Positions 33,690-46,025 of a stretch of 46,025 nt of DNA are shown piece after piece. Positions within the stretch are counted from its first letter, which is position 1, and each line of letters begins with the position of its first letter. The position numbers and the translations under genes were made by a program. Source of the DNA: Candidatus Velthaea versatilis (GTDB lineage Bacteria > Vulcanimicrobiota > Vulcanimicrobiia > Vulcanimicrobiales > Vulcanimicrobiaceae); the NCBI GenBank assembly GCA_003134035.1, contig PLAE01000236.1, positions 1-46,025 of the forward strand. Reading direction: 5' to 3'. The notes beneath the pieces are model-generated. The model saw only the letters and a program-made list of their open reading frames with translations, searched no databases and was not told the DNA's origin.

Positions 33690-34979
33690 TTAGCGGTGTT
33701 CCACGAACCGCGGGTCAATAGCGCGGTCCAGAACCGAATCGAAGGTCGTAAGCGGGCAGTCAAAGCTCGGGCATCCCGGAAGAAAAACCGGCACCATGAG
33801 CGGCGCCGCGTTTCGGAGCGACGTGCCTGAGCGAAGTTCGTCGAGCGTCTGCGCGCTAAAAAGGATCCGCACGAACGCTCCGCTCGAACCCGATGGCGGG
33901 GCATAGAGCTCGAACACGAGGGCGCCGCCGGGCGGCGTATCGTTTGGTTGATATCCCGGAATCAACCAAGAGACATGGAGCATGCCGGCGAGGGTTTCGA
34001 GATTGGTGTCGTGGCCGACGAATGCGGCGAACCGGACGCCGGGCGGAACCGGAGTTTGCGCGCGCCGCTTGCCGTCGGCGCTCTGATCGATCGTTGCACC
34101 GAGGGTCGCGAGCAGATTCGAACCCTGCGCCGTTGCCGTGTACGACGTCTCGGTCGTGACGATGTATTTGAGCATATGGAGTTGCGATAGCCACAGAAGC
34201 GTCGGCGCGTCGACACGGCCCCACCCGACGTCGGCCATCGGCATCCCGTCCGCATACTCGAGGATGAAGTCCTCAACGGCGGTTGAGCCGAGCTCGACAG
34301 GACCGCTCAGGGATGTCAGTCCGGTTTTTTCGCTCGCCGACAGAGAACTCGGAACGCTGGTAATCGCTGGGCATTGACCGGCCGCGCAGCCGAGAATCGA
34401 TTCGAGCGCGGAAAAGGCCGCGCGGTTTGCCGTGACGAGGGCGGCGGGGTCATTGCCGATCGCGCCGGCAACCGAAGCGCGCGCGGCGATCGGGTCCGCT
34501 TTGCCCAGTGCCGGCAGCGCATGGAAGATCGGGTCGACGGTCGCGTCGGCAACGTGTTTGAGAATCCCGCAACTCGGAGCGATTCCGGAAATCAACGCGT
34601 CGGCAGTCGCCTTGGTGCGCTGCTCGACGTCCGCCCACACAAAGACCGCGCCGGCCGGCGGACATCCCGTCTCCGGCAAGAGTCCCGCCTGCGCATAGCG
34701 CCGGCGGTATGCCTGACCTTCGATCGTCATCAGCGCCGCACCGTGCGCCGTGAGATAACCCGGCGGCGTATTCCAGGCCGGCCAAGGACGCGCGGCATAG
34801 GCGCTGAGCTTACCGGGATCCGTTGGCGAACGTACTCCGTGACGGCTAAAGATCATCACCATGCGCAGCGGCTCAGCATCCGCGGCGGAGGGCGCGTTCC
34901 CGGCGCCGGCTCGCACTGCCGAAAGAAGACAAAGGACGGCCGTAACGAGTGCGCGCAGAGCGGAACTGATCGGTTTCAT
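33690..34979 (-). CDS. Secreted histidine acid phosphatase (AppA/Agp type)
   Basis: 429-residue periplasmic phosphatase of the two-domain histidine phosphatase family, which includes phytases and glucose-1-phosphatase. Signal peptide MKPISSALRALVTAVLCLLSAVRAGA. Catalytic RHGVRSP with Arg46 and nucleophile His47; the second-half HD motif is GHDTN (His323-Asp324), the acid being Asp324. Several Cys (ETGCPP, SCGIL, LGCAAGQCP, PGCPSFDCP) could form disulphides, as in AppA. It would release phosphate from organic esters outside the inner membrane. Divergent from a beta-propeller gene across a region with palindrome and tandem repeat, likely its control region. Confidence 0.93.
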   Translation of the reverse strand: MKPISSALRALVTAVLCLLSAVRAGAGNAPSAADAEPLRMVMIFSRHGVRSPTDPGKLSAYAARPWPAWNTPPGYLTAHGAALMTIEGQAYRRRYAQAGLLPETGCPPAGAVFVWADVEQRTKATADALISGIAPSCGILKHVADATVDPIFHALPALGKADPIAARASVAGAIGNDPAALVTANRAAFSALESILGCAAGQCPAITSVPSSLSASEKTGLTSLSGPVELGSTAVEDFILEYADGMPMADVGWGRVDAPTLLWLSQLHMLKYIVTTETSYTATAQGSNLLATLGATIDQSADGKRRAQTPVPPGVRFAAFVGHDTNLETLAGMLHVSWLIPGYQPNDTPPGGALVFELYAPPSGSSGAFVRILFSAQTLDELRSGTSLRNAAPLMVPVFLPGCPSFDCPLTTFDSVLDRAIDPRFVEHR

Positions 34980-36180: not shown

Positions 36181-37569
36181 CTATCCGCCGCCGCTGGGCG
36201 CGAGCAGATCGAAGGCACCTTGCGCAGCGACGTGCTCGCCGGCGCGGAGGCCCGTGCCGACCAACGTGCGCTGATCGTCGCCGTCCAGGATCGTAACTTT
36301 GCGCGGGACGAACCGCGCCGGACTTCCGGCCGGGCGTTCCGCGACGAAGACGATCGACGAACCGTTTTCGGGATCTTCGACGATCGCACTCGTCGGAATC
36401 ACAATACCGTAGCGTTCGCCGACGTCGATCGTCGCTGCGACCGCATCACCCGAAACGGCACCCGGCGGCGCGCCCGTAACGGTAACGATGGTGGTCTGCG
36501 TCGACGGATCGAGGATGGGCACCACGGCGCGCACGCGTCCGCGGCCGCCGCGCCCGCTGTCGGCCGCCGTCATCGTCACCGCATCGCCGGGCCGCACGCG
36601 GCGCGCGTCGGCGCCCAGAACCGTTAAGCTGACGTCGCTGCTCTGCGCGGGTCCGACGACGATTGCGGCCTGCGTCGGGTCGACGGCTTCACCAGGATGT
36701 TTGAGGATCGCGGTCACGACGCCGTCCGCGGCAGCCGCGAGCGTGGCGACCGCGAGCGTTCGCTGCGCGGCCGCGTAGTGTGCCCGGGCCGCCGCGGCCT
36801 CTGCCGCGGCCACGTTGATTTGGGCGCGTGCGGCTTGCACGTCACTCTGCCCTTGGGTTACGTCGGCGCGCGCTTGCGCGAGGGCCTCGCCGATGCTCGA
36901 TCCGGCGCTCGCTAATTTCGCCCGATCGGCAGCGGCCTGCGCGCGGTCGAAGAGGAGTTCCGCCCGCGCGGCCTCGACGTCTTTGAGCGCGGTGACGCCG
37001 CCCGCATAGAGTCGGGTTGCGCGGTCGGCGGCAAGCCCGTCGACGCTCACTTTGGCCGCGGACTGACGGACCGCGGCGAGCGCCGCTTCGCGGTCGCTTT
37101 GGGCACTGGCCGTGCCGCTTTCGAGTGACCGCAGCCGGCCGCGCGCCGCGGCAAGGCGCGCTTGCGCAGCTGCCAACGCGCGGCTTGCGACCATGCCGCC
37201 GCCGTAGCTCGCCGCCGCGGCGAGCGCGTCGTTGCGCGCCTGCGCGACATCCAGCGCGATGCCGGTCGTATCGAGTTCGGCCAGCGGTTGCCCGGCCCGC
37301 ACCGCTGCGCCGACGCGAACGTCGACCCGCGCGACGATGCCGGTAGTAGCAAAGGCGAGTTTTGCTTCACCGCCGGACGGAACGCCGACCCGGCCTTGCG
37401 CGCGGACGCGCAGGACGTAGCGGGCGAACACCGCCGGCGCGACGGGAACGGCCGGCGCAGCGCGAACGGCGGCCGGAACCGTTCCTGCATTGCGCTGCCG
37501 CAGGACGACCAGCGTGCCGGCGACAAGAATCGCGATCGCGCAGATGCCGACGATCGCGCGGCGGTTCAT
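36181..37569 (-). CDS. HlyD-family periplasmic adaptor of an RND pump
   Basis: 462-residue membrane-fusion protein. N-terminal membrane anchor (AIVGICAIAILVAGTLVVLRQR), a lipoyl/barrel-sandwich half-motif FATTGIVARVDVRVGAAVRAGQPLAELDT, a long Ala-rich alpha-helical hairpin (about residues 110-260) that docks on TolC, a second barrel half (ADGVVTAILKHPGEAVD), beta-barrel and membrane-proximal domains (GIVIPTSAIVED). Its ATG overlaps the stop of the upstream RND-TolC gene in ATGA, so adaptor and pump are coupled. It connects the inner-membrane pump with the outer-membrane channel. Confidence 0.93.
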   Translation of the reverse strand: MNRRAIVGICAIAILVAGTLVVLRQRNAGTVPAAVRAAPAVPVAPAVFARYVLRVRAQGRVGVPSGGEAKLAFATTGIVARVDVRVGAAVRAGQPLAELDTTGIALDVAQARNDALAAAASYGGGMVASRALAAAQARLAAARGRLRSLESGTASAQSDREAALAAVRQSAAKVSVDGLAADRATRLYAGGVTALKDVEAARAELLFDRAQAAADRAKLASAGSSIGEALAQARADVTQGQSDVQAARAQINVAAAEAAAARAHYAAAQRTLAVATLAAAADGVVTAILKHPGEAVDPTQAAIVVGPAQSSDVSLTVLGADARRVRPGDAVTMTAADSGRGGRGRVRAVVPILDPSTQTTIVTVTGAPPGAVSGDAVAATIDVGERYGIVIPTSAIVEDPENGSSIVFVAERPAGSPARFVPRKVTILDGDDQRTLVGTGLRAGEHVAAQGAFDLLAPSGGG

Positions 37570-40500
37570 GAATCAACCTCCAGCCCCAATACCGTTTGCG
37601 CTTTGAGCCGATCGTATTGGGCCGAGAGCGCATCGACGACGGCCTGCACGTACGTCGCACGCGATGTGCTTAGATCAAGACTCGTCGACGCGCCGTTTTC
37701 GTAACCGAGCGTCGCCGCGTCGAGTTCGGCGCGCGCGGCGGCGAGCGCCGTAAGCACGGCGCGTTCGGCTTCGATCGACGCGGCGGCCGTCCGCGCCGCG
37801 GACGCGACTTCGAGCGCGACCGCGCGGCTAACGCCGTCGCGGTGCGCGCGCGCGGCATCCAGCAGCGCCGCTTGGGCGTGCACCCGGGCCGCAACGCTGC
37901 CGCCGAGGGGGACCGACACCAGCGCGGACAGCGTTGGACCCTTTACGGGAAAGCCGGAATCGATGCCGCGCGCGTAGCCCGCGCCGAGCGTCACCGCCGG
38001 GAACGCGCCGCCGCGCGCGGCAGCGACGCCGGCAGCGGAGGCGCGAACGTTCGAATCCGCCGAACGCACCTCGGCGCGCCGCGCAAGCGCCAAGTCAACC
38101 GCGACGTCCGGGGACGGAACCGGAGCTGGGGCCGGCACCGCCGCGGCGGCCGTCGCCGCGAAGGCCGCCATCGAACGGTCGACCTCATGAGCCAGCGCAT
38201 CGGTGGCCGAACCGTCGTCGGCGTTGGCGGTCGCGAGATCGGCCTGGGCGCGAGCGAGGGCGACTTGGGCCCGCACGACGTCCAGCCGCGGTGCCTCCCC
38301 AGCGGCGTAACGCGCCTGCGCGGCGCCCAGTTGCCGCTGCGCGGAGCCGATCGCGTCGGCGCGCGCGCCCCGAACGGCGCGCGCTTTGAGCGCGCCGTAA
38401 TACAGAGTGATTGCTTTGATGCGCTCGGTGCGTTCGGCGGCGAGTTCGTCGCTTTGGGCCGCGCGAACGGCAGCGGCGGCCGCGCCGATCAGCGGCGCCA
38501 ATGCGGCGAGATCGCCCAGCGCGACTTGCCCCCCATACTGCGTCGATCGCTGAGCGATCGCGCCGCCGGGAGCGCCCTGGGGCGCTTCGACATAACTGCC
38601 GACCAAGGCAAAGCCGTTGGTCGAACGCGCTTGCGCAAGCCCGGCGCGCGCGCCGTCAAGTGCGGCGCGCGCGCTACGAACGTCCGGCGATGCGACGACC
38701 GCGAGCTGCTGCGCCGCTGCCAAATCGACTTGCGCGAACCGCAACGTGGTGAGGGCCCCCGGCGGAACCTCTTGCGCGCTCGCGGTGCGCGGCGCGCCCG
38801 ACAGAATCGCGAGCAGCAGCGCCACGGTTCCCGCGCGCAGCGCCCGGCGGCGCGCGAAAGCGCCCGAGAACGTCGCATACAGCACCGGGATGAGGACCAG
38901 CGTAAAAATCGTCGCGGTCGACAATCCGCCGATCACGGCGACGGCGAGTGGACGTTCCATCTCGGCCCCCGCACCCAAACCTAGCGCCAGCGGAAACAAG
39001 CCCCCGATCGCGGCCAGCGTCGTCATCACGATCGGCCGCACGCGCGTCGAACCCGCCGTCAGCAACGCCCGCGTCACGTCGTCCCCCGCCGCCCGCCGGC
39101 GATTCGCAACATCGATGAGCAGAATCCCGTTCTTCACGACGATGCCGACGAGTAAGAGCAACCCCATGAACGACGACACGTTGAACGGGGTCCGCGTGAC
39201 GAAAAGCGCCGCGGCGACCCCGACGAGCGCGAGCGGAATGGCGCATAAGATGACGAGCGGCAGACGAAACGAGCCGAAGGTCGCGAGCATCACGCCGAAC
39301 ACCAGCGCGACCGCGATGCCGATGACGGCGCCGAACTCGCGGAAGGACGCTTGCTGCGTCTCGTACGCGCCGCCGATCGCCGCTGCGTATCCCGGCGGAA
39401 GCCCCGACCCGGCGAGCGCTGTTTTTACGCCGCCGATCACGTCCGACAGCGACGCATCCCTGATGTTTGCCGTCACCCGGTCGATGAGCCGGCCGTTCTC
39501 CTCGTTGATGTCGCTGGCGCGCGGCGGCTCGTCGATCCGCGCAAAAGCGCCCAGCGGCGCCGGACCGTTCTTGGTGAAGAGCGTCGAACCGCCGATCCCG
39601 CTCGCGCCGAATGCGCCGGCAACGCGCACGATCACGGGAATCGTCGCACTCTCGCCCGGGATCTGCGCGGCGGCGGTCCCTTGCGTGCGCGCGCCAACCG
39701 CGTCGCCCAAATCGGCGGCGCTGATGCCGAGCGCGTCGAGTCGCGCGCTTTGCGGGGCGATGCGCACCGCGGGATCGTCGTAAACGATCCCGTCGAAGCT
39801 GTCGACGACACCGCGCACCTTCGCGATGGCATCGGTCGTCTTGTCGGCAACGTCGAGCAGTTTGGCTTGATCCGGTCCGCTGATCGTCACCTCGATGGGC
39901 TGCGGCGTCCCGGACAGATCGTTGATTTGGTCCTCCAAGAGCTGATGGAAGTCGAGATTCGCGGCCGGCACGGCAGCGCCGAGCGCATTGCGCAAGCGAT
40001 CGGAGATCGCGTCGTATCCGGCGCGCGCGCCCGTGCGCAAAGCGACGCGCAGCGTCCCCGTGTTCGGCTGGGTCGGCGAAAAACCGTTGGTATCGACCCC
40101 GCTGAGCCGGCCGACGGACAGCACGTCCGGGTCGCCCAAGACAAGCCGATCCAGTTTGCCTGCCGCAGCATCGCTGTCGGCCAGCGTGGCGCCGGCCGGC
40201 AGCGTGTATTTGATCTCGAATTCGCCTTCATCGAGCTTGGGCAAAAAGTCGTTCGGCAATTGGACCAACAAGACGAACGTTACGACGAGCACGACACCGC
40301 CGGCGGCGTACACCGCGCGCCGATGCCCCAGCGCCCAGCGCAGAATCGGTTCGTAGAACTCACGCAAGCGATCCGCGCGCTCCGCCGGCGGCGGCGCGCC
40401 CTTCAGGAACGCATGCGCGAGGATCGGGGCGACACCAACCGCCAGGCCGAGTGAGACGAGCAGTGACACCGCCAAGGTGAAAGCGAGGGCGCGAAAAAAA

Positions 40501-41888
40501 AAGCCCGCCACGCCCGAAAGTAAGCCCAACGGAATGAAAACAACGACGGTCGTCAAAGTCGAGGCTGCCATCGCGCCGGCGATGTGACCGACCGCCGTCG
40601 CGATCGCGGCCGCGTGCGATTCGTTGGGATACTCCGCGCGTCGACGCGCGATCGCTTCGATCACGACGATTGCGTCATCGATGATGAGTCCAACGGCAAT
40701 CGCCAATCCGCCCACGCTCATGAGGTTGAGTGATTGCCCCGACTGTTCGAGGACGAGGATGGCGATCGCTAACGCGAGCGGGATGATCGCGGCGGCCACC
40801 AGCGTCATCCGAACGCTGCGCAAGAACAGATAGATGACCACGACGGCTAGCACGGCGCCCAGGAATATCGCGTCTCGCAACGATCGCTGCGAATCGACGA
40901 TGAGGCGCGTTTGATCCCAATACTTGACGATCTCGACATCGGCGGGCAAGGCACCGCGAACCGCCGCTAGCCGGGCCTCGAAGGCGTTCGCGAGACTCAC
41001 GACGTCGGCCCCGGCGAGCGGGAAAGCGTTGAGCACCACGGCGTGCACGCCGTTCACGGCCGCCGCAGCGACCGCGGGGCCGACCCCGAGCCGGACGGTG
41101 CCGAGCATGCCCAGCGGGACCGTACCGCCGCCTTTGAGCGGAATTCCGATCGCCCCAAGAGTGCGCACATCGTGGATCGACGAGTCGATGAGCAGAACGT
41201 AACGCTGATGGTAGCGGACAGCCGTGCCGGCGGATTGCACGGTGCTCGCCGTGCCGATCGCCGCGGCCGCGTCGGCCGCGGACAACCCGACGGCGGCGAG
41301 CGCCGCCGGCGCGAGTTCGACGCGGTATTCAATCGGCGGGCCGCCGACGACCGACGTGCGCCCCAGGCCCGGCGTGCCGGCGAACGCGGGCACGATGCGC
41401 GTCGTCACGAAGCTGTTCAGCGCCGCTTGCGACAGGACGCGCGAGGTTAGCCCGTACGAAAGAGCCGGCTCGGCGTTCGGGTTGACGATCACCGCCTCGA
41501 TGCCCTTGGCCTCCGGCAGGGTCGGCGCAATCGCTGAGATGACGCTCCGAACGTATTGCAGGTCCTCGCGCGGATCGCTGTGGGTATCGAAATCGATGAG
41601 GATCTCGGCCGACCCTTGGGTGGACGTCGCGCGGACACGGGTCGCCGCCGGCAGCGTTCCGAACGCCGTTTCCAATGGCCGCGTAACGGCGATCCGAACC
41701 CGATCCGGCGGCAAATCTCCGGCGTCCGCGACGACGTCGATGCGCGCGAAGGACATCGCCGGGAAGATACTCTGCGGTGCGATCAGATAGGAACGCACAC
41801 CGAGCGCCGCCAGCACGAGCACGACGAAAAGAATGACCTTGGCGCGACCGAGGACGAGTTCTGCTATGTTCACGAACACCGCTACCAT
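37566..41888 (-). CDS. RND efflux permease fused to a TolC-like outer-membrane factor
   Basis: 1440-residue single chain. Residues 1 to about 1015 are a complete HAE1-type RND pump: TM1 near VILFVVLVLAALGV, porter and docking domains, TM4 relay Asp404-Asp405 in GLIIDDAIVVIE (AcrB D407/D408), TM10 Lys919 in GIVVKNGILLID (AcrB K940), and TM12 IFTLVLIPVLYATFSG. Next comes basic ARRRALRAG and a signal-like helix TVALLLAILSGAPRTASA|Q (about 1021-1038, AxA site). Residues 1039-1440 are a normal-length outer-membrane factor with both OEP repeats (QARYAAGEAPRLDVVRAQ; YENGASTSLDLSTSRATY). Start ATG 41888, 29 bp from the divergent response regulator. GTG 38825 could be an internal start. No stop or frameshift separates the parts. 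Confidence 0.9.
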   Translation of the reverse strand: MVAVFVNIAELVLGRAKVILFVVLVLAALGVRSYLIAPQSIFPAMSFARIDVVADAGDLPPDRVRIAVTRPLETAFGTLPAATRVRATSTQGSAEILIDFDTHSDPREDLQYVRSVISAIAPTLPEAKGIEAVIVNPNAEPALSYGLTSRVLSQAALNSFVTTRIVPAFAGTPGLGRTSVVGGPPIEYRVELAPAALAAVGLSAADAAAAIGTASTVQSAGTAVRYHQRYVLLIDSSIHDVRTLGAIGIPLKGGGTVPLGMLGTVRLGVGPAVAAAAVNGVHAVVLNAFPLAGADVVSLANAFEARLAAVRGALPADVEIVKYWDQTRLIVDSQRSLRDAIFLGAVLAVVVIYLFLRSVRMTLVAAAIIPLALAIAILVLEQSGQSLNLMSVGGLAIAVGLIIDDAIVVIEAIARRRAEYPNESHAAAIATAVGHIAGAMAASTLTTVVVFIPLGLLSGVAGFFFRALAFTLAVSLLVSLGLAVGVAPILAHAFLKGAPPPAERADRLREFYEPILRWALGHRRAVYAAGGVVLVVTFVLLVQLPNDFLPKLDEGEFEIKYTLPAGATLADSDAAAGKLDRLVLGDPDVLSVGRLSGVDTNGFSPTQPNTGTLRVALRTGARAGYDAISDRLRNALGAAVPAANLDFHQLLEDQINDLSGTPQPIEVTISGPDQAKLLDVADKTTDAIAKVRGVVDSFDGIVYDDPAVRIAPQSARLDALGISAADLGDAVGARTQGTAAAQIPGESATIPVIVRVAGAFGASGIGGSTLFTKNGPAPLGAFARIDEPPRASDINEENGRLIDRVTANIRDASLSDVIGGVKTALAGSGLPPGYAAAIGGAYETQQASFREFGAVIGIAVALVFGVMLATFGSFRLPLVILCAIPLALVGVAAALFVTRTPFNVSSFMGLLLLVGIVVKNGILLIDVANRRRAAGDDVTRALLTAGSTRVRPIVMTTLAAIGGLFPLALGLGAGAEMERPLAVAVIGGLSTATIFTLVLIPVLYATFSGAFARRRALRAGTVALLLAILSGAPRTASAQEVPPGALTTLRFAQVDLAAAQQLAVVASPDVRSARAALDGARAGLAQARSTNGFALVGSYVEAPQGAPGGAIAQRSTQYGGQVALGDLAALAPLIGAAAAAVRAAQSDELAAERTERIKAITLYYGALKARAVRGARADAIGSAQRQLGAAQARYAAGEAPRLDVVRAQVALARAQADLATANADDGSATDALAHEVDRSMAAFAATAAAAVPAPAPVPSPDVAVDLALARRAEVRSADSNVRASAAGVAAARGGAFPAVTLGAGYARGIDSGFPVKGPTLSALVSVPLGGSVAARVHAQAALLDAARAHRDGVSRAVALEVASAARTAAASIEAERAVLTALAAARAELDAATLGYENGASTSLDLSTSRATYVQAVVDALSAQYDRLKAQTVLGLEVDS

Positions 41889-41917
41889 GCCACCCGAACA
41901 TGACGTGACGATGAACG

Positions 41918-42595
41918 ATGCGCATCCTCTTCGTCGATGACGACGAGCGCCTGGCGGGCTTGGTACGGCGTGGTTTAGGCGAGTCTGGGCACGTGGTCGA
42001 CTGCGCGCTGGGCGGGAGTGCCGGCCTGATCTTCGCGACGGAGCGCGCTTACGACGCCATCGTCCTCGACGTGATGATGCCGGAACTCGACGGCTTTGCC
42101 CTCGTCCGTCGGCTTCGCGGCGAAGGGAACAACACACCCATCCTGTTTTTAACGGCCCGCGATGCACCCGAGGACACGATCGCGGGCCTCAACGCGGGCG
42201 CGGATGACTACCTGCGCAAACCGTTCGTGTTCGGCGAGCTCGAAGCACGCCTGCGCTCGATCGCGCGCCGGACGGCGCCGTTGAACAACCAGCTGCTGAC
42301 GGTCGCCGATCTCACCTTCGACGTGCAGACGCGGCGCGCCAAGCGCGGCGCGCGCGAGATCGAGCTCACCGCGCGCGAAGGGGCTTTTCTCGAATATTTT
42401 ATGCGGCACGCGGGCCGGGTCATGACGCGCGCGATGATCGAAGATACGCTGTGGACGATCGACAATGCGAATACCTCGAACATCGTCGACGTCTACGTGC
42501 GCCGGCTGCGCGCCAAGCTCGAAGCTGCCGGCGAAGTCCGGTTGCTGCACACGTTGCGGGGCGCCGGTTACCGGCTCGAGGCGCCGCGCACGTGA
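41918..42595 (+). CDS. OmpR-family response regulator
   Basis: 225-residue two-component regulator. Receiver domain with DDD (7-9), phospho-acceptor Asp51 in IVLDVMMPELDG, LTARDAPED and Lys101 in LRKPF; a C-terminal OmpR winged helix with ELTAREGAFLEYFMRHAG and TSNIVDVYVRRLRAKLEA. The kinase starts 8 nt downstream. Divergent by 29 bp from the efflux operon, which it most likely regulates. Confidence 0.97.
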   Translation: MRILFVDDDERLAGLVRRGLGESGHVVDCALGGSAGLIFATERAYDAIVLDVMMPELDGFALVRRLRGEGNNTPILFLTARDAPEDTIAGLNAGADDYLRKPFVFGELEARLRSIARRTAPLNNQLLTVADLTFDVQTRRAKRGAREIELTAREGAFLEYFMRHAGRVMTRAMIEDTLWTIDNANTSNIVDVYVRRLRAKLEAAGEVRLLHTLRGAGYRLEAPRT

Positions 42596-42603
42596 GGACA
42601 GGT

Positions 42604-43995
42604 ATGTCGTTACGCAATCGGCTGGCGGTGTCGTTCGCGCTTGCACTCGTGCTGGCATACATCGCGATCGCGGTCGGCGCGGTCGTCGTCGTCAGTCGCG
42701 TACTGCGAGCATCGATTGACGGCCGGTTGACGACCGTCGCGCAAGCGGTGACCGCCATCGCGGGCGACGATCGCGACGAGATCGATCGCGAGGATCGCCA
42801 ACAGTTCGCCGCGGTCACCGCCGACGCCGGGGGTGCCCTGGTGTTGGATGCCGCGGGCGGGATGGTGTTAGGCACGACACCGGACATTCCGCCTTGGGTT
42901 ATCGCCGCACTCCGCACCGCGCGCATCGGCCGCCCGTTCACTGCGGCAAGCGACGGCCGCGAACTGCGCGTCATCGTCGAGCGGCGTCGAAGACCCGAGG
43001 TGAACAACCGCATCATCGTCTGGCAATCGATGCAGATCGTGCACGACGTCGAAACGCCGCTCGTCCTCGTGCTGAGCGGTTTCGGCTGTCTGGTTTTGTT
43101 CGTCGGTTACTGGGCCGGCGCGCAAATCGCCAAGCGCGGATTGCTTCCGCTCACGCGGATCACGGCGATTGTCGCGGAGATCGCGGCGAACGACCTTAGC
43201 CTGCGCGTCGGACCGCAACCCCATGAAGATGAATTGGGGCTGCTCGCCGCCACGTTCGATCGAATGCTCGATCGACTCCAAGCGGCCTTCGAGCGCCAAC
43301 GCCAGTTCACGGCCGACGCTTCGCACGATCTGCGCGCTCCGCTTTCGACGCTACGCGCCGAAGTCGACTTGGCGCTGCGGCGCGAGCGAACGAACGCCGA
43401 ATACCAATCGGCCCTGCGCGAGATCGCCGCGGATGCCGATCAGCTCGAGCATCTTATCGACGCCTTGCTCGCGACTGCGCGCAGCGATTCCGGCGACGCG
43501 GATCTTCGCCCGTTCGATCTCAATCTGATCGTGGAGGCGTCGGCGGCGGAGATCGAACCCTTTGCCCGAGCGAGGAATGTGAAAATCGACGCCGACCTCG
43601 CGCCCGACGTTCGCATCCTCGGCGACACGAGTCTGGTGGGTCGCGCCGTGCTCGCGACTTTGCACAATGCGGTGAAGTTTACGCCGGCCGAGCGCTCGAT
43701 CCACCTCAGCGTCATTTCCGCGGCGAGCCAGGCGCGCTTGTGTGTGCGCGACGAAGGGCCGGGCTTTACCGATGCGGCGCTCGCGCACGCACTCGACCGC
43801 TTTTGGCGCGATGACGGCGCGCGCGGCCGCAGCGGCAGCGGGCTTGGCCTCGCTATCGCGCACGCGATCGTCCGTCGCTGCGGCGGTGAAATCACGATCG
43901 ACAATCCCGCGGCGGGCGGAGCGCAAGTGACAATGACCTTCCCGTTGCTGGACCGCGCTCGCCCGCTGCGCGCCGTACCGGCCGGCAGCGACTAA
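42604..43995 (+). CDS. Sensor histidine kinase
   Basis: 463-residue membrane kinase partner of the upstream regulator. Two membrane helices (about 9-31 and 153-173) flank a periplasmic sensor domain of about 120 residues; then HAMP (about 174-226), the HisKA domain with phosphorylated His241 in SHDLRAPLS, and an HATPase_c domain with Asn355 in LHNAVKFTP, DEGPGF and GSGLGLAIAHAIV. ATG 42604 preceded by AGGACAGG. The H-box reads HDLRAPLS rather than the common HELRTPL, a minor variant. Its TAA stop overlaps the TAG stop of the convergent TonB receptor in CTAA. Confidence 0.95.
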   Translation: MSLRNRLAVSFALALVLAYIAIAVGAVVVVSRVLRASIDGRLTTVAQAVTAIAGDDRDEIDREDRQQFAAVTADAGGALVLDAAGGMVLGTTPDIPPWVIAALRTARIGRPFTAASDGRELRVIVERRRRPEVNNRIIVWQSMQIVHDVETPLVLVLSGFGCLVLFVGYWAGAQIAKRGLLPLTRITAIVAEIAANDLSLRVGPQPHEDELGLLAATFDRMLDRLQAAFERQRQFTADASHDLRAPLSTLRAEVDLALRRERTNAEYQSALREIAADADQLEHLIDALLATARSDSGDADLRPFDLNLIVEASAAEIEPFARARNVKIDADLAPDVRILGDTSLVGRAVLATLHNAVKFTPAERSIHLSVISAASQARLCVRDEGPGFTDAALAHALDRFWRDDGARGRSGSGLGLAIAHAIVRRCGGEITIDNPAAGGAQVTMTFPLLDRARPLRAVPAGSD

Positions 43996-46025
43996 ATCCG
44001 CGCGTTGACTTGAATCGAGAGCAGCCGCGGCTGTAAGCCAAAGAGCTCGTCCTGGGTCATTGCGCCGATGCCCACCACTTGACCGATCGCGGAGGCATCA
44101 CCAGTGTACTGACGATTCGTCGGGGCGGCCAACTGTTCGCCGAAGTAGCCGTAGCTCTGTGCGTTCTGGTTGAATAGGTTGTAGGCGCTGAACGTCAGCG
44201 ACAAATTCCGGCCGATCGATTTCGAGAGGAAGCCGTTGTAGTACGTGTATGCCGGCCGGTTTAAGGTGTTGTTGTTGCCGATGTAGTAGAGCTGAAGCTG
44301 GGCCTCGTAACCGCGCAGCCCCGCGTAGTCCGCACCGACGTTGAACTTGTGCAGCGGGATGCTGTAGATTTGGCCGCCGTCAAGGATCCACGGGTTGTTG
44401 ATGAGCACGTTGGCCGGTTCGCCGAATTGTTGCGAGGACTGGATGTCGTAGCTGAAGTCGACGCGGATCCACGGCGCAAGGCGGATACGGCCAGCCGCCT
44501 CGATCCCGCGGTACAGCGCGGACTGGGCGTTGAAATAGCCCGACAATCCGAGCCGCGGCGAGATATCGGCAGCCGTGAACGCGGTTCCGCACGCCGTATT
44601 GATTTTGGTGGCGTATGCGCCCAAGGCCCCGGCGATATTGGGGTTGGCGAGCGCGATCGGCGTGATCGGAAACGCTCCCGCGAAAATCTGGTCTTTCACG
44701 CTCGAAAGGTAGGCCACGACATTGACCGATGTATCGGACCAGAAGCGGTGACCGTACGCAGCCTCGAGATCCGACGACCGTTCCGGCTTCAGAGCCGGAT
44801 TGCCGCCCGACGCGACGACGTTGGGCACGACGGGATTGCAGGACGCATTCAAGCTATTGGGATTCGAGAATTTCGAGAGCAGGGCCCCATCAACGGTAGT
44901 GATCGACGGATCGCCATCGGCTTGCCCCGCCGTGAGCCGGACGACGTCGTGTGCCGTCGGCTTCAGGACGAGCGAAACGCGCGGATCGAGCGTTGTGTGT
45001 TGCGTGACGCTGCTGCGCCGGTCCCAAACGTTGAGGAACGTCGAGATCCGGTCGGTGAACGTGTAGTTGTCGCGCAGGAAGAAGCTGTAGTCCCCCTCGC
45101 CCAGCGTCGCCTGCGGCGTAAACGACACGGTGTTCGTCTTCGAGTCGTACGCGCGGTTGTCGCCCGACGTCTGCTGGTGTTCGACGAAGTAGCCGAAGCC
45201 GACGTCGTTCTTTTCCGTTGCGATGTCATCCGTGGCCAGAAAGCCGTGAGTGAGGTAATTGTCTTGATATGTCCCCGTACCGGTTAAGAACGTGCCGGTC
45301 GGGTCGAGGCCCGCTGCCGCATCCGAGTTTTTATGGAAGTTGTAATAATCGCTGAAGGCGCTGAACGACAGGGCATTGAGTCCGATTTGCGAGGTCACGC
45401 GCCCAGCGAAGTCCTGCAGACTCGTGCCGCGGTTGCGGTCCTCGCCGCCGCCGTCGGGACCGGATGTCGCCGCGGCGAGTTGCTGCGCGGTCAAGCACGC
45501 GTTCGGGTTGGCGTTGGTGACGGCCAGGTAGCCACCCGGGCAATTCGTTGGAGTACTCTGAATCGCTGCTAGACGCGTCTGGTACGGGTAATAGTCATTG
45601 TCGCCGTTCCCGGTACTGTCGGCGTGCGTATTGCTGTCGTACGCGGTCAACGTCAGCGCCGTGGACGGCGTGAAATTATAGCGCAGCTTCGCGAGATCGT
45701 TGAGCACCTTGAAATTGCCGCTGACCGAGTAGGTGTTCAGCGCGGTATTGCAACTCGTGATGTCGGGCTGAGTGCCGCTTCCAAGACACGTACCGTTGTT
45801 GTTGAGGTTCGCATTATTGTTCGGGCGAAAGCTTTGGAACACCAGACCCGGCGCCAGCGGGCCGTACGTGCCCTGCACGTCGTGGCCAAACGAGTAACCG
45901 AACCGGCCGATCGAACCGGTCGTCTTCACCAGCGTCTCCGCCGTCCCGTCGTTGCCGAACGACTGGAGTACCGCACCGTGCGAGCGCGAGGTCGCCGAAA
46001 GCGTCTGGAGATCGATGGTCCCGCC
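43992..46025 (-). CDS. TonB-dependent outer-membrane receptor, C-terminal part
   Basis: At least 677 residues; the frame stays open to the right edge, so the signal peptide, TonB box and most of the plug lie outside. The visible start GGTIDLQT is the usual end of the plug domain. The rest is a beta-barrel rich in aromatic strand ends and long polar loops (TLTAYDSNTH, YSFFLRDNYTFTDRISTFLNVWDRR, NPALKPERSSDLEAAYGHRFW, IRVDFSYDIQ, YEAQLQLYYIGNN, LSLTFSAYNLFNQNAQ), ending LLSIQVNARI. NPALKPERS is a conserved receptor motif. It imports a bulky ligand (siderophore, vitamin or sugar) using TonB energy; the ligand is unknown. It is strong evidence for a diderm organism. Confidence 0.93.
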   Translation of the reverse strand, partial: GGTIDLQTLSATSRSHGAVLQSFGNDGTAETLVKTTGSIGRFGYSFGHDVQGTYGPLAPGLVFQSFRPNNNANLNNNGTCLGSGTQPDITSCNTALNTYSVSGNFKVLNDLAKLRYNFTPSTALTLTAYDSNTHADSTGNGDNDYYPYQTRLAAIQSTPTNCPGGYLAVTNANPNACLTAQQLAAATSGPDGGGEDRNRGTSLQDFAGRVTSQIGLNALSFSAFSDYYNFHKNSDAAAGLDPTGTFLTGTGTYQDNYLTHGFLATDDIATEKNDVGFGYFVEHQQTSGDNRAYDSKTNTVSFTPQATLGEGDYSFFLRDNYTFTDRISTFLNVWDRRSSVTQHTTLDPRVSLVLKPTAHDVVRLTAGQADGDPSITTVDGALLSKFSNPNSLNASCNPVVPNVVASGGNPALKPERSSDLEAAYGHRFWSDTSVNVVAYLSSVKDQIFAGAFPITPIALANPNIAGALGAYATKINTACGTAFTAADISPRLGLSGYFNAQSALYRGIEAAGRIRLAPWIRVDFSYDIQSSQQFGEPANVLINNPWILDGGQIYSIPLHKFNVGADYAGLRGYEAQLQLYYIGNNNTLNRPAYTYYNGFLSKSIGRNLSLTFSAYNLFNQNAQSYGYFGEQLAAPTNRQYTGDASAIGQVVGIGAMTQDELFGLQPRLLSIQVNARI

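Follow-up and report, generated by a model that had tools for sequence, protein, structure and literature searches.

Recurrent fusion of an RND permease and a TolC-like outer-membrane channel in a single reading frame with a predicted internal signal peptide

Abstract

One continuous open reading frame in the window (the whole 46,025-nucleotide stretch of DNA analysed here) encodes both the RND permease and the outer-membrane factor (OMF) of a tripartite pump. The RND-OMF fusion, seen in a few uncultured bacteria, is real, conserved and recurrent, with at least three separate origins. The best reading, to which we assign a probability of about four in five from the sequence evidence, is that of a polyprotein that would be cleaved in trans by signal peptidase I, yielding pump and channel 1:1. 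The wider proposal, that the fusions which arose at least three times in the phylum are each a signal-peptidase-processed polyprotein, fixing pump:channel stoichiometry at synthesis for products bound for two different membranes, is in our judgement rather probable. To our knowledge, polyproteins are rare in bacteria, and one that supplied both a pump for the inner membrane and a channel for the outer would, if true, be an unusual means of fixing a 1:1 ratio in a tripartite pump. Repeated origin from genes that overlap by a few bases would also mark out a simple path from translational coupling to a polyprotein, and the fusion offers a natural test both of cutting by signal peptidase I within a 13-helix precursor and of the delivery of an outer-membrane protein from such a precursor. 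For annotators there is a warning, in that a channel may hide within a long 'RND transporter'.

Background

Pumps of the MdtABC/AcrAB-TolC and MexAB-OprM type resemble that of the window in having an RND permease, an OMF and an adaptor in one operon; they differ in that the permease and OMF of the window are one translation product, with the putative OMF signal peptide inside the chain. A possible parallel is FbcH of Bradyrhizobium japonicum, a cytochrome b/c1 polyprotein that signal peptidase reportedly cleaves, in work attributed to Thony-Meyer, Hennecke and co-workers from 1989-1991. By analogy, a polytopic inner-membrane protein would be followed in both by an exported partner whose internal signal peptide allows its release by signal peptidase, with 1:1 output. 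The proteins are, however, unrelated, and the second product of FbcH stays at the inner membrane, whereas that of the window must reach the outer membrane. Database entries from the Bacteroidota probably also include chains of about 1,430-1,460 aa in which ACR_tran and OEP are combined and which carry a CusA/CzcA transporter annotation. Their domain order would be that of the fused chain described here; they belong to the heavy-metal (CusA/CzcA) branch and to another phylum, and would be separate fusions. A search of the literature brought up no account of RND-OMF fusions occurring in nature; a large review, in the passages found, mentions engineered AcrB trimers and fusions of SecDF type and no others (PMC8277102). 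The permease, OMF and adaptor described here are ordinary members of their families and we do not claim that the combination of ACR_tran with OEP is unique; what is new is the repeated origin of the fusion with a conserved internal signal peptide.

Results and discussion

Two complete pump components in one frame

The minus strand, read from 41888 to 37566, runs through 1440 codons without a stop (Table 1). A sequence-only reading of this DNA had proposed that the resulting chain comprises a full RND permease and a full TolC-like factor, and profile and structure comparisons bear this out: both halves are complete. The Pfam ACR_tran match (PF00873) is full-length (E=4e-187; 624.6 bits against a curated cut-off of 28). 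As that reading had also held, key residues are kept, in the permease at least, where the proton-relay motifs are 'IIDDAIVV' in TM4 (401-409; DD), 'VVKNGILL' in TM10 (917-924; K) and 'TRVRPIVMTT' in TM11 (948-957; R), and line up with MdtB. The nearest solved structures by sequence are MdtB and ZneA. Under the CusA/CzcA model TIGR00914 the permease scores 396 bits, below the curated cut-off of 701.45, and with the HAE-type NCBIfam models it likewise stays short of the cut-off. OEP (PF02321) is matched twice in the frame, above cut-off, with 1263-1432 as the best stretch. An AlphaFold (AF2) model of the OMF half, built with 29 related sequences, has a pLDDT of 88.6 and the duplicated helix-strand-strand-helix plan; Foldseek matches it over the full length to TolC, with an E of 8e-22, and to OprM and CusC, with TM-scores of about 0.6-0.7 (0.69 for CusC).

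The linked periplasmic adaptor gene that a tripartite pump operon requires is present as well. Its product scores above the RND_mfp cut-off, and its ATG and the stop codon of the fused gene share a 4-nt overlap (ATGA; 37566-37569), a kind of junction that recurs at other fused loci.

Table 1. Features of the pump region of the window, with residue numbers of the fused chain
Feature	Position	Strand	Remarks
Periplasmic adaptor (RND_mfp)	36181..37569	-	Above cut-off; third pump part
Fused RND permease / outer-membrane factor frame	37569..41888	-	1440 aa; stop codon 37566-37568
RND permease part, ACR_tran	38868..41861	-	Residues 10-1007; 12 membrane helices expected; DD / K / R relay motifs intact
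Putative internal signal peptide	38775..38852	-	Residues 1013-1038: n-region RRRALRAG, h-region TVALLLAILSGA, c-region PRTASA
Predicted signal peptidase I site A1038/Q1039	38772..38777	-	Both residues invariant in 6/6 aligned fused joints
Outer-membrane factor, predicted mature chain Q1039-S1440	37569..38774	-	402 aa, about 41 kDa; OEP, TolC fold
Semi-tryptic peptide expected from Q1039 if the chain is cut			QEVPPGALTTLR
Tryptic peptide expected across A1038/Q1039 if the chain is uncut			TASAQEVPPGALTTLR
OmpR-type response regulator	41918..42595	+	Divergent from fused gene
Open frame with partner sensor histidine kinase	42451..43995	+	True start lies within frame

Separate genes in relatives and repeated fusion

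Sixty related genomes were searched with the whole protein. Of the 22 loci compared, that of the window among them, 20 encode permease and channel separately. At 19 of these 20 unfused loci a channel start codon lies in another frame and shares 4 or 1 nt with the permease stop, and at all seven loci checked the adaptor start likewise overlaps the channel stop. Overlaps at both junctions indicate that the ancestral state was a translationally coupled trio. Separate searches with the channel alone covered the family (99 genomes) and then the class and phylum (149 genomes); the phylum scan returned a channel orthologue in 43 genomes (E below 1e-59), six of them fused. A scan of named genomes gave one locus, from a relative without the fusion (JAJYFL010000004.1, 'MAG: bacterium isolate DBS1-2.bin29'). 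Of the 5000 best plasmid records, none aligns over 80% of the fused chain, and a single, unfused RND gene is present on the one plasmid of Flammeovirga that was searched. At two loci, L012 (G017) and L013 (G049), the channel match is in two pieces with extra sequence between them, which may be an insertion that separates the two OEP repeats.

The fused frame occurs in six genomes of three genera: that of the window (G000), four from different species in a sister genus, and one from a third genus (G093). The channel lies inside the long permease frame in G112 (1447 codons), G116 (1453) and G093 (1444); in G113 the frame is cut by the contig start. Independent assemblies from further species thus show the conservation of the fusion in related genomes, which the sequence-only reading had left to be looked for. 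It had named two separate genes in all close relatives as grounds for refutation; most relatives do have separate genes, but a clade of five species and one independent lineage are fused. A sixth copy, in G008, has a fused frame of 1324 codons and a frameshift at about permease residue 245 (L010:5127-5133; L074 near 9343) in a single-contig genome; it could be either a sequencing error or a decaying copy.

In maximum-likelihood trees of both halves, the copy from the window groups with those of the fused g9 species, and the G093 copy nests next to the unfused G007 and G017. A single fused clade is rejected by the AU test (p=6e-5 for the RND half and 0.002 for the OMF half), which implies a second, separate origin of the fusion in the third genus. 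A fifth species, G115, belongs to the same genus as the four fused ones, yet has a separate permease and channel pair (L073, G115:C75) and a more distant channel, which groups with the lineage of G093, G007 and G017; this pattern would fit horizontal exchange of the operon from one lineage to another. The third fusion comes from a more distant family of the phylum and belongs to a different RND subfamily; it lies at L098:2-3580 (G131:C358) and is cut by the contig start. Four unfused relatives of it (G135, G136, G139, G140) have adjacent separate genes.

Might an assembly or sequencing artefact have joined two overlapping genes? The overlap of 4 nt in relatives means that a one-base error could merge the frames; the genomes are mostly drafts, and the G008 copy is frameshifted elsewhere in the gene. 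The fused state is nevertheless repeated in five other assemblies from two other genera, and the joints vary in length yet stay in frame, with the ATGA overlap lost rather than shifted. These independent assemblies make an artefact very unlikely, to the point of being barely credible. That the pump is decaying, with an inactive channel part, is highly unlikely also. The frameshift in G008 would fit decay, but the frames are open over their full length in G000, G112, G116 and G093, the OMF of the window retains 54-60% identity to the other fused copies of its clade together with the full TolC fold, and the fusion has arisen repeatedly with signal peptides intact.

The joint

Residues 1009-1043 of the window chain read GAFARRRALRAGTVALLLAILSGAPRTASA/QEVPP, the slash marking the predicted cut, and pass from a basic stretch through a 12-residue hydrophobic core (1021-1032) to A1036-S-A1038/Q1039. 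The sequence-only reading had placed basic residues, a hydrophobic helix and an AxA site at about 1021-1038, which is right to within a few residues. Its view that these make up a signal peptide buried mid-protein is strengthened by the retention of the layout in the six fused orthologues, which represent two independent fusions, and in the third fusion outside that group. The joint of the latter (G131), though unrelated, has the same plan and reads KASGTPAAILVVVIFAALVLRPAVAA/P, with AAILVVVIFAALVLRPAVAA/P as the putative signal peptide.

When the joints of the six genomes are aligned from the last conserved Gly of the permease (G33) to the first conserved Phe of the channel (F75), length and sequence both vary between these two residues, and the only invariant columns are R38, A62 and Q63, that is, the n-region Arg and the -1 and +1 residues of the predicted cleavage site. 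The six joints end in ASA/Q, ATA/Q, VQA/Q, ARA/Q, TRA/Q and ARA/Q. Signal-peptide character was scored by a simple rule, each joint being compared with its own shuffles; only 0-2.5% of shuffles match the real joint, which thus beats 97.5-100% of them. For G113 the top-scoring cut of the rule falls a few residues ahead of the aligned TRA/Q. No 19-residue hydrophobicity window at the joint reaches the membrane-helix threshold, which the permease helices do reach. Main-clade joints are 30-34 codons long and differ by whole codons, so that the frame is kept, and the pattern of GC by codon position through the six orthologous joints is the same as in the flanks; third-position GC is lower in the G131 joint. 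When the joint was modelled by itself, AlphaFold gave a poor result (pLDDT 59, and about 40 at the joint), which was set aside.

Several free channels of relatives also end their signal peptide in xAQ (TSAQ in G007, ALAQ in G034). The ending is thus inherited from free channels, and part of its conservation could be history rather than selection; the significance of Ala-Gln lies in the motif having survived while the surrounding sequence changed.

A further possibility is that the channel is made mostly from an internal start near the joint, the fused frame being incidental, and we consider this distinctly unlikely. A GTG, encoding the conserved Val of 'IPVLY', does lie upstream of the signal peptide in most copies, and G113 has an ATG ahead of the Arg-rich stretch. 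That Val codon, however, belongs to a permease motif and is GTG in unfused loci too and GTT in G093, while the other in-frame starts sit within the hydrophobic core. In the fused loci no ribosome-binding site was seen before any candidate start near the joint, and no usable internal start is conserved. Any ribosome completing the permease would, moreover, make the fused chain regardless.

A polyprotein probably cut by signal peptidase I

Cleavage, topology, outer-membrane delivery and stoichiometric benefit are all points that we infer, as follows. An operon of permease, channel and adaptor genes with short stop/start overlaps would have lost the stop between permease and channel, giving one polyprotein. 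RND permeases have twelve helices and then end in the cytosol. The permease would thus insert with its C-terminus in the cytosol, and the signal peptide that once stood at the N-terminus of the channel, retained at the joint, would start Sec translocation of the channel; the earlier proposal that an extra helix sends the TolC part to the periplasm appears topologically right. Signal peptidase I would cut after Ala1038; the mature channel, of about 41 kDa, would then move on to the outer membrane, and the permease would keep a short additional C-terminal helix. Pump and channel would be made strictly 1:1, as suits a 3:3 pump, and the adaptor, needed in other numbers, would stay a separate, translationally coupled gene. 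Equal numbers of pump and channel are a sound expectation from the fusion, and 1:1 synthesis of two parts that assemble 3:3 is its likely gain.

The chain had been called self-processing, which is not upheld, since it contains no protease; a genome-encoded signal peptidase I would act in trans. Five of the six fused genomes, that of the window included, encode the enzyme; its profile (PF10502) was not found in G112, a genome that is 83% complete.

The sequence-only reading had also allowed for an uncut chain, a 13-helix permease covalently tied to the channel. A single frame does encode both parts, and the hydrophobic joint could in principle serve as a signal anchor. Its 12-residue core is, however, of signal-peptide and not of anchor length, and the cleavage residues Ala-1 and Gln+1 are the best preserved within an otherwise scrambled joint. 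Geometry also disfavours the tether. The channel barrel stands on the adaptor, above the periplasmic domain of the permease, and its first helix (H1) lies in the equatorial ring, midway along the roughly 100 angstrom alpha-barrel of the periplasm (PMC8277102). In the model the first confident helix begins about 18 residues past the cleavage site; about 18-25 residues separate the hydrophobic core from this helix, or 60-90 angstrom fully stretched, where more than 100 angstrom are needed to reach mid-barrel. A lasting tether is therefore unlikely, because the linker cannot span to the outer membrane, and with a linker too short for an uncut chain, cleavage by signal peptidase I is the best-supported reading.

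Genomic surroundings

The OmpR-type response regulator encoded divergently from the fused gene is the likely controller of the pump operon. Just 29 bp (41889-41917) separate the two starts, which is tight for two promoters, and one of the two starts may lie further in. Further out, the pump region is flanked by a frame at 43992-45929 that matches TonB-dependent receptor beta-barrels and by one at 33690-34979 for a histidine-phosphatase-branch-2 protein.
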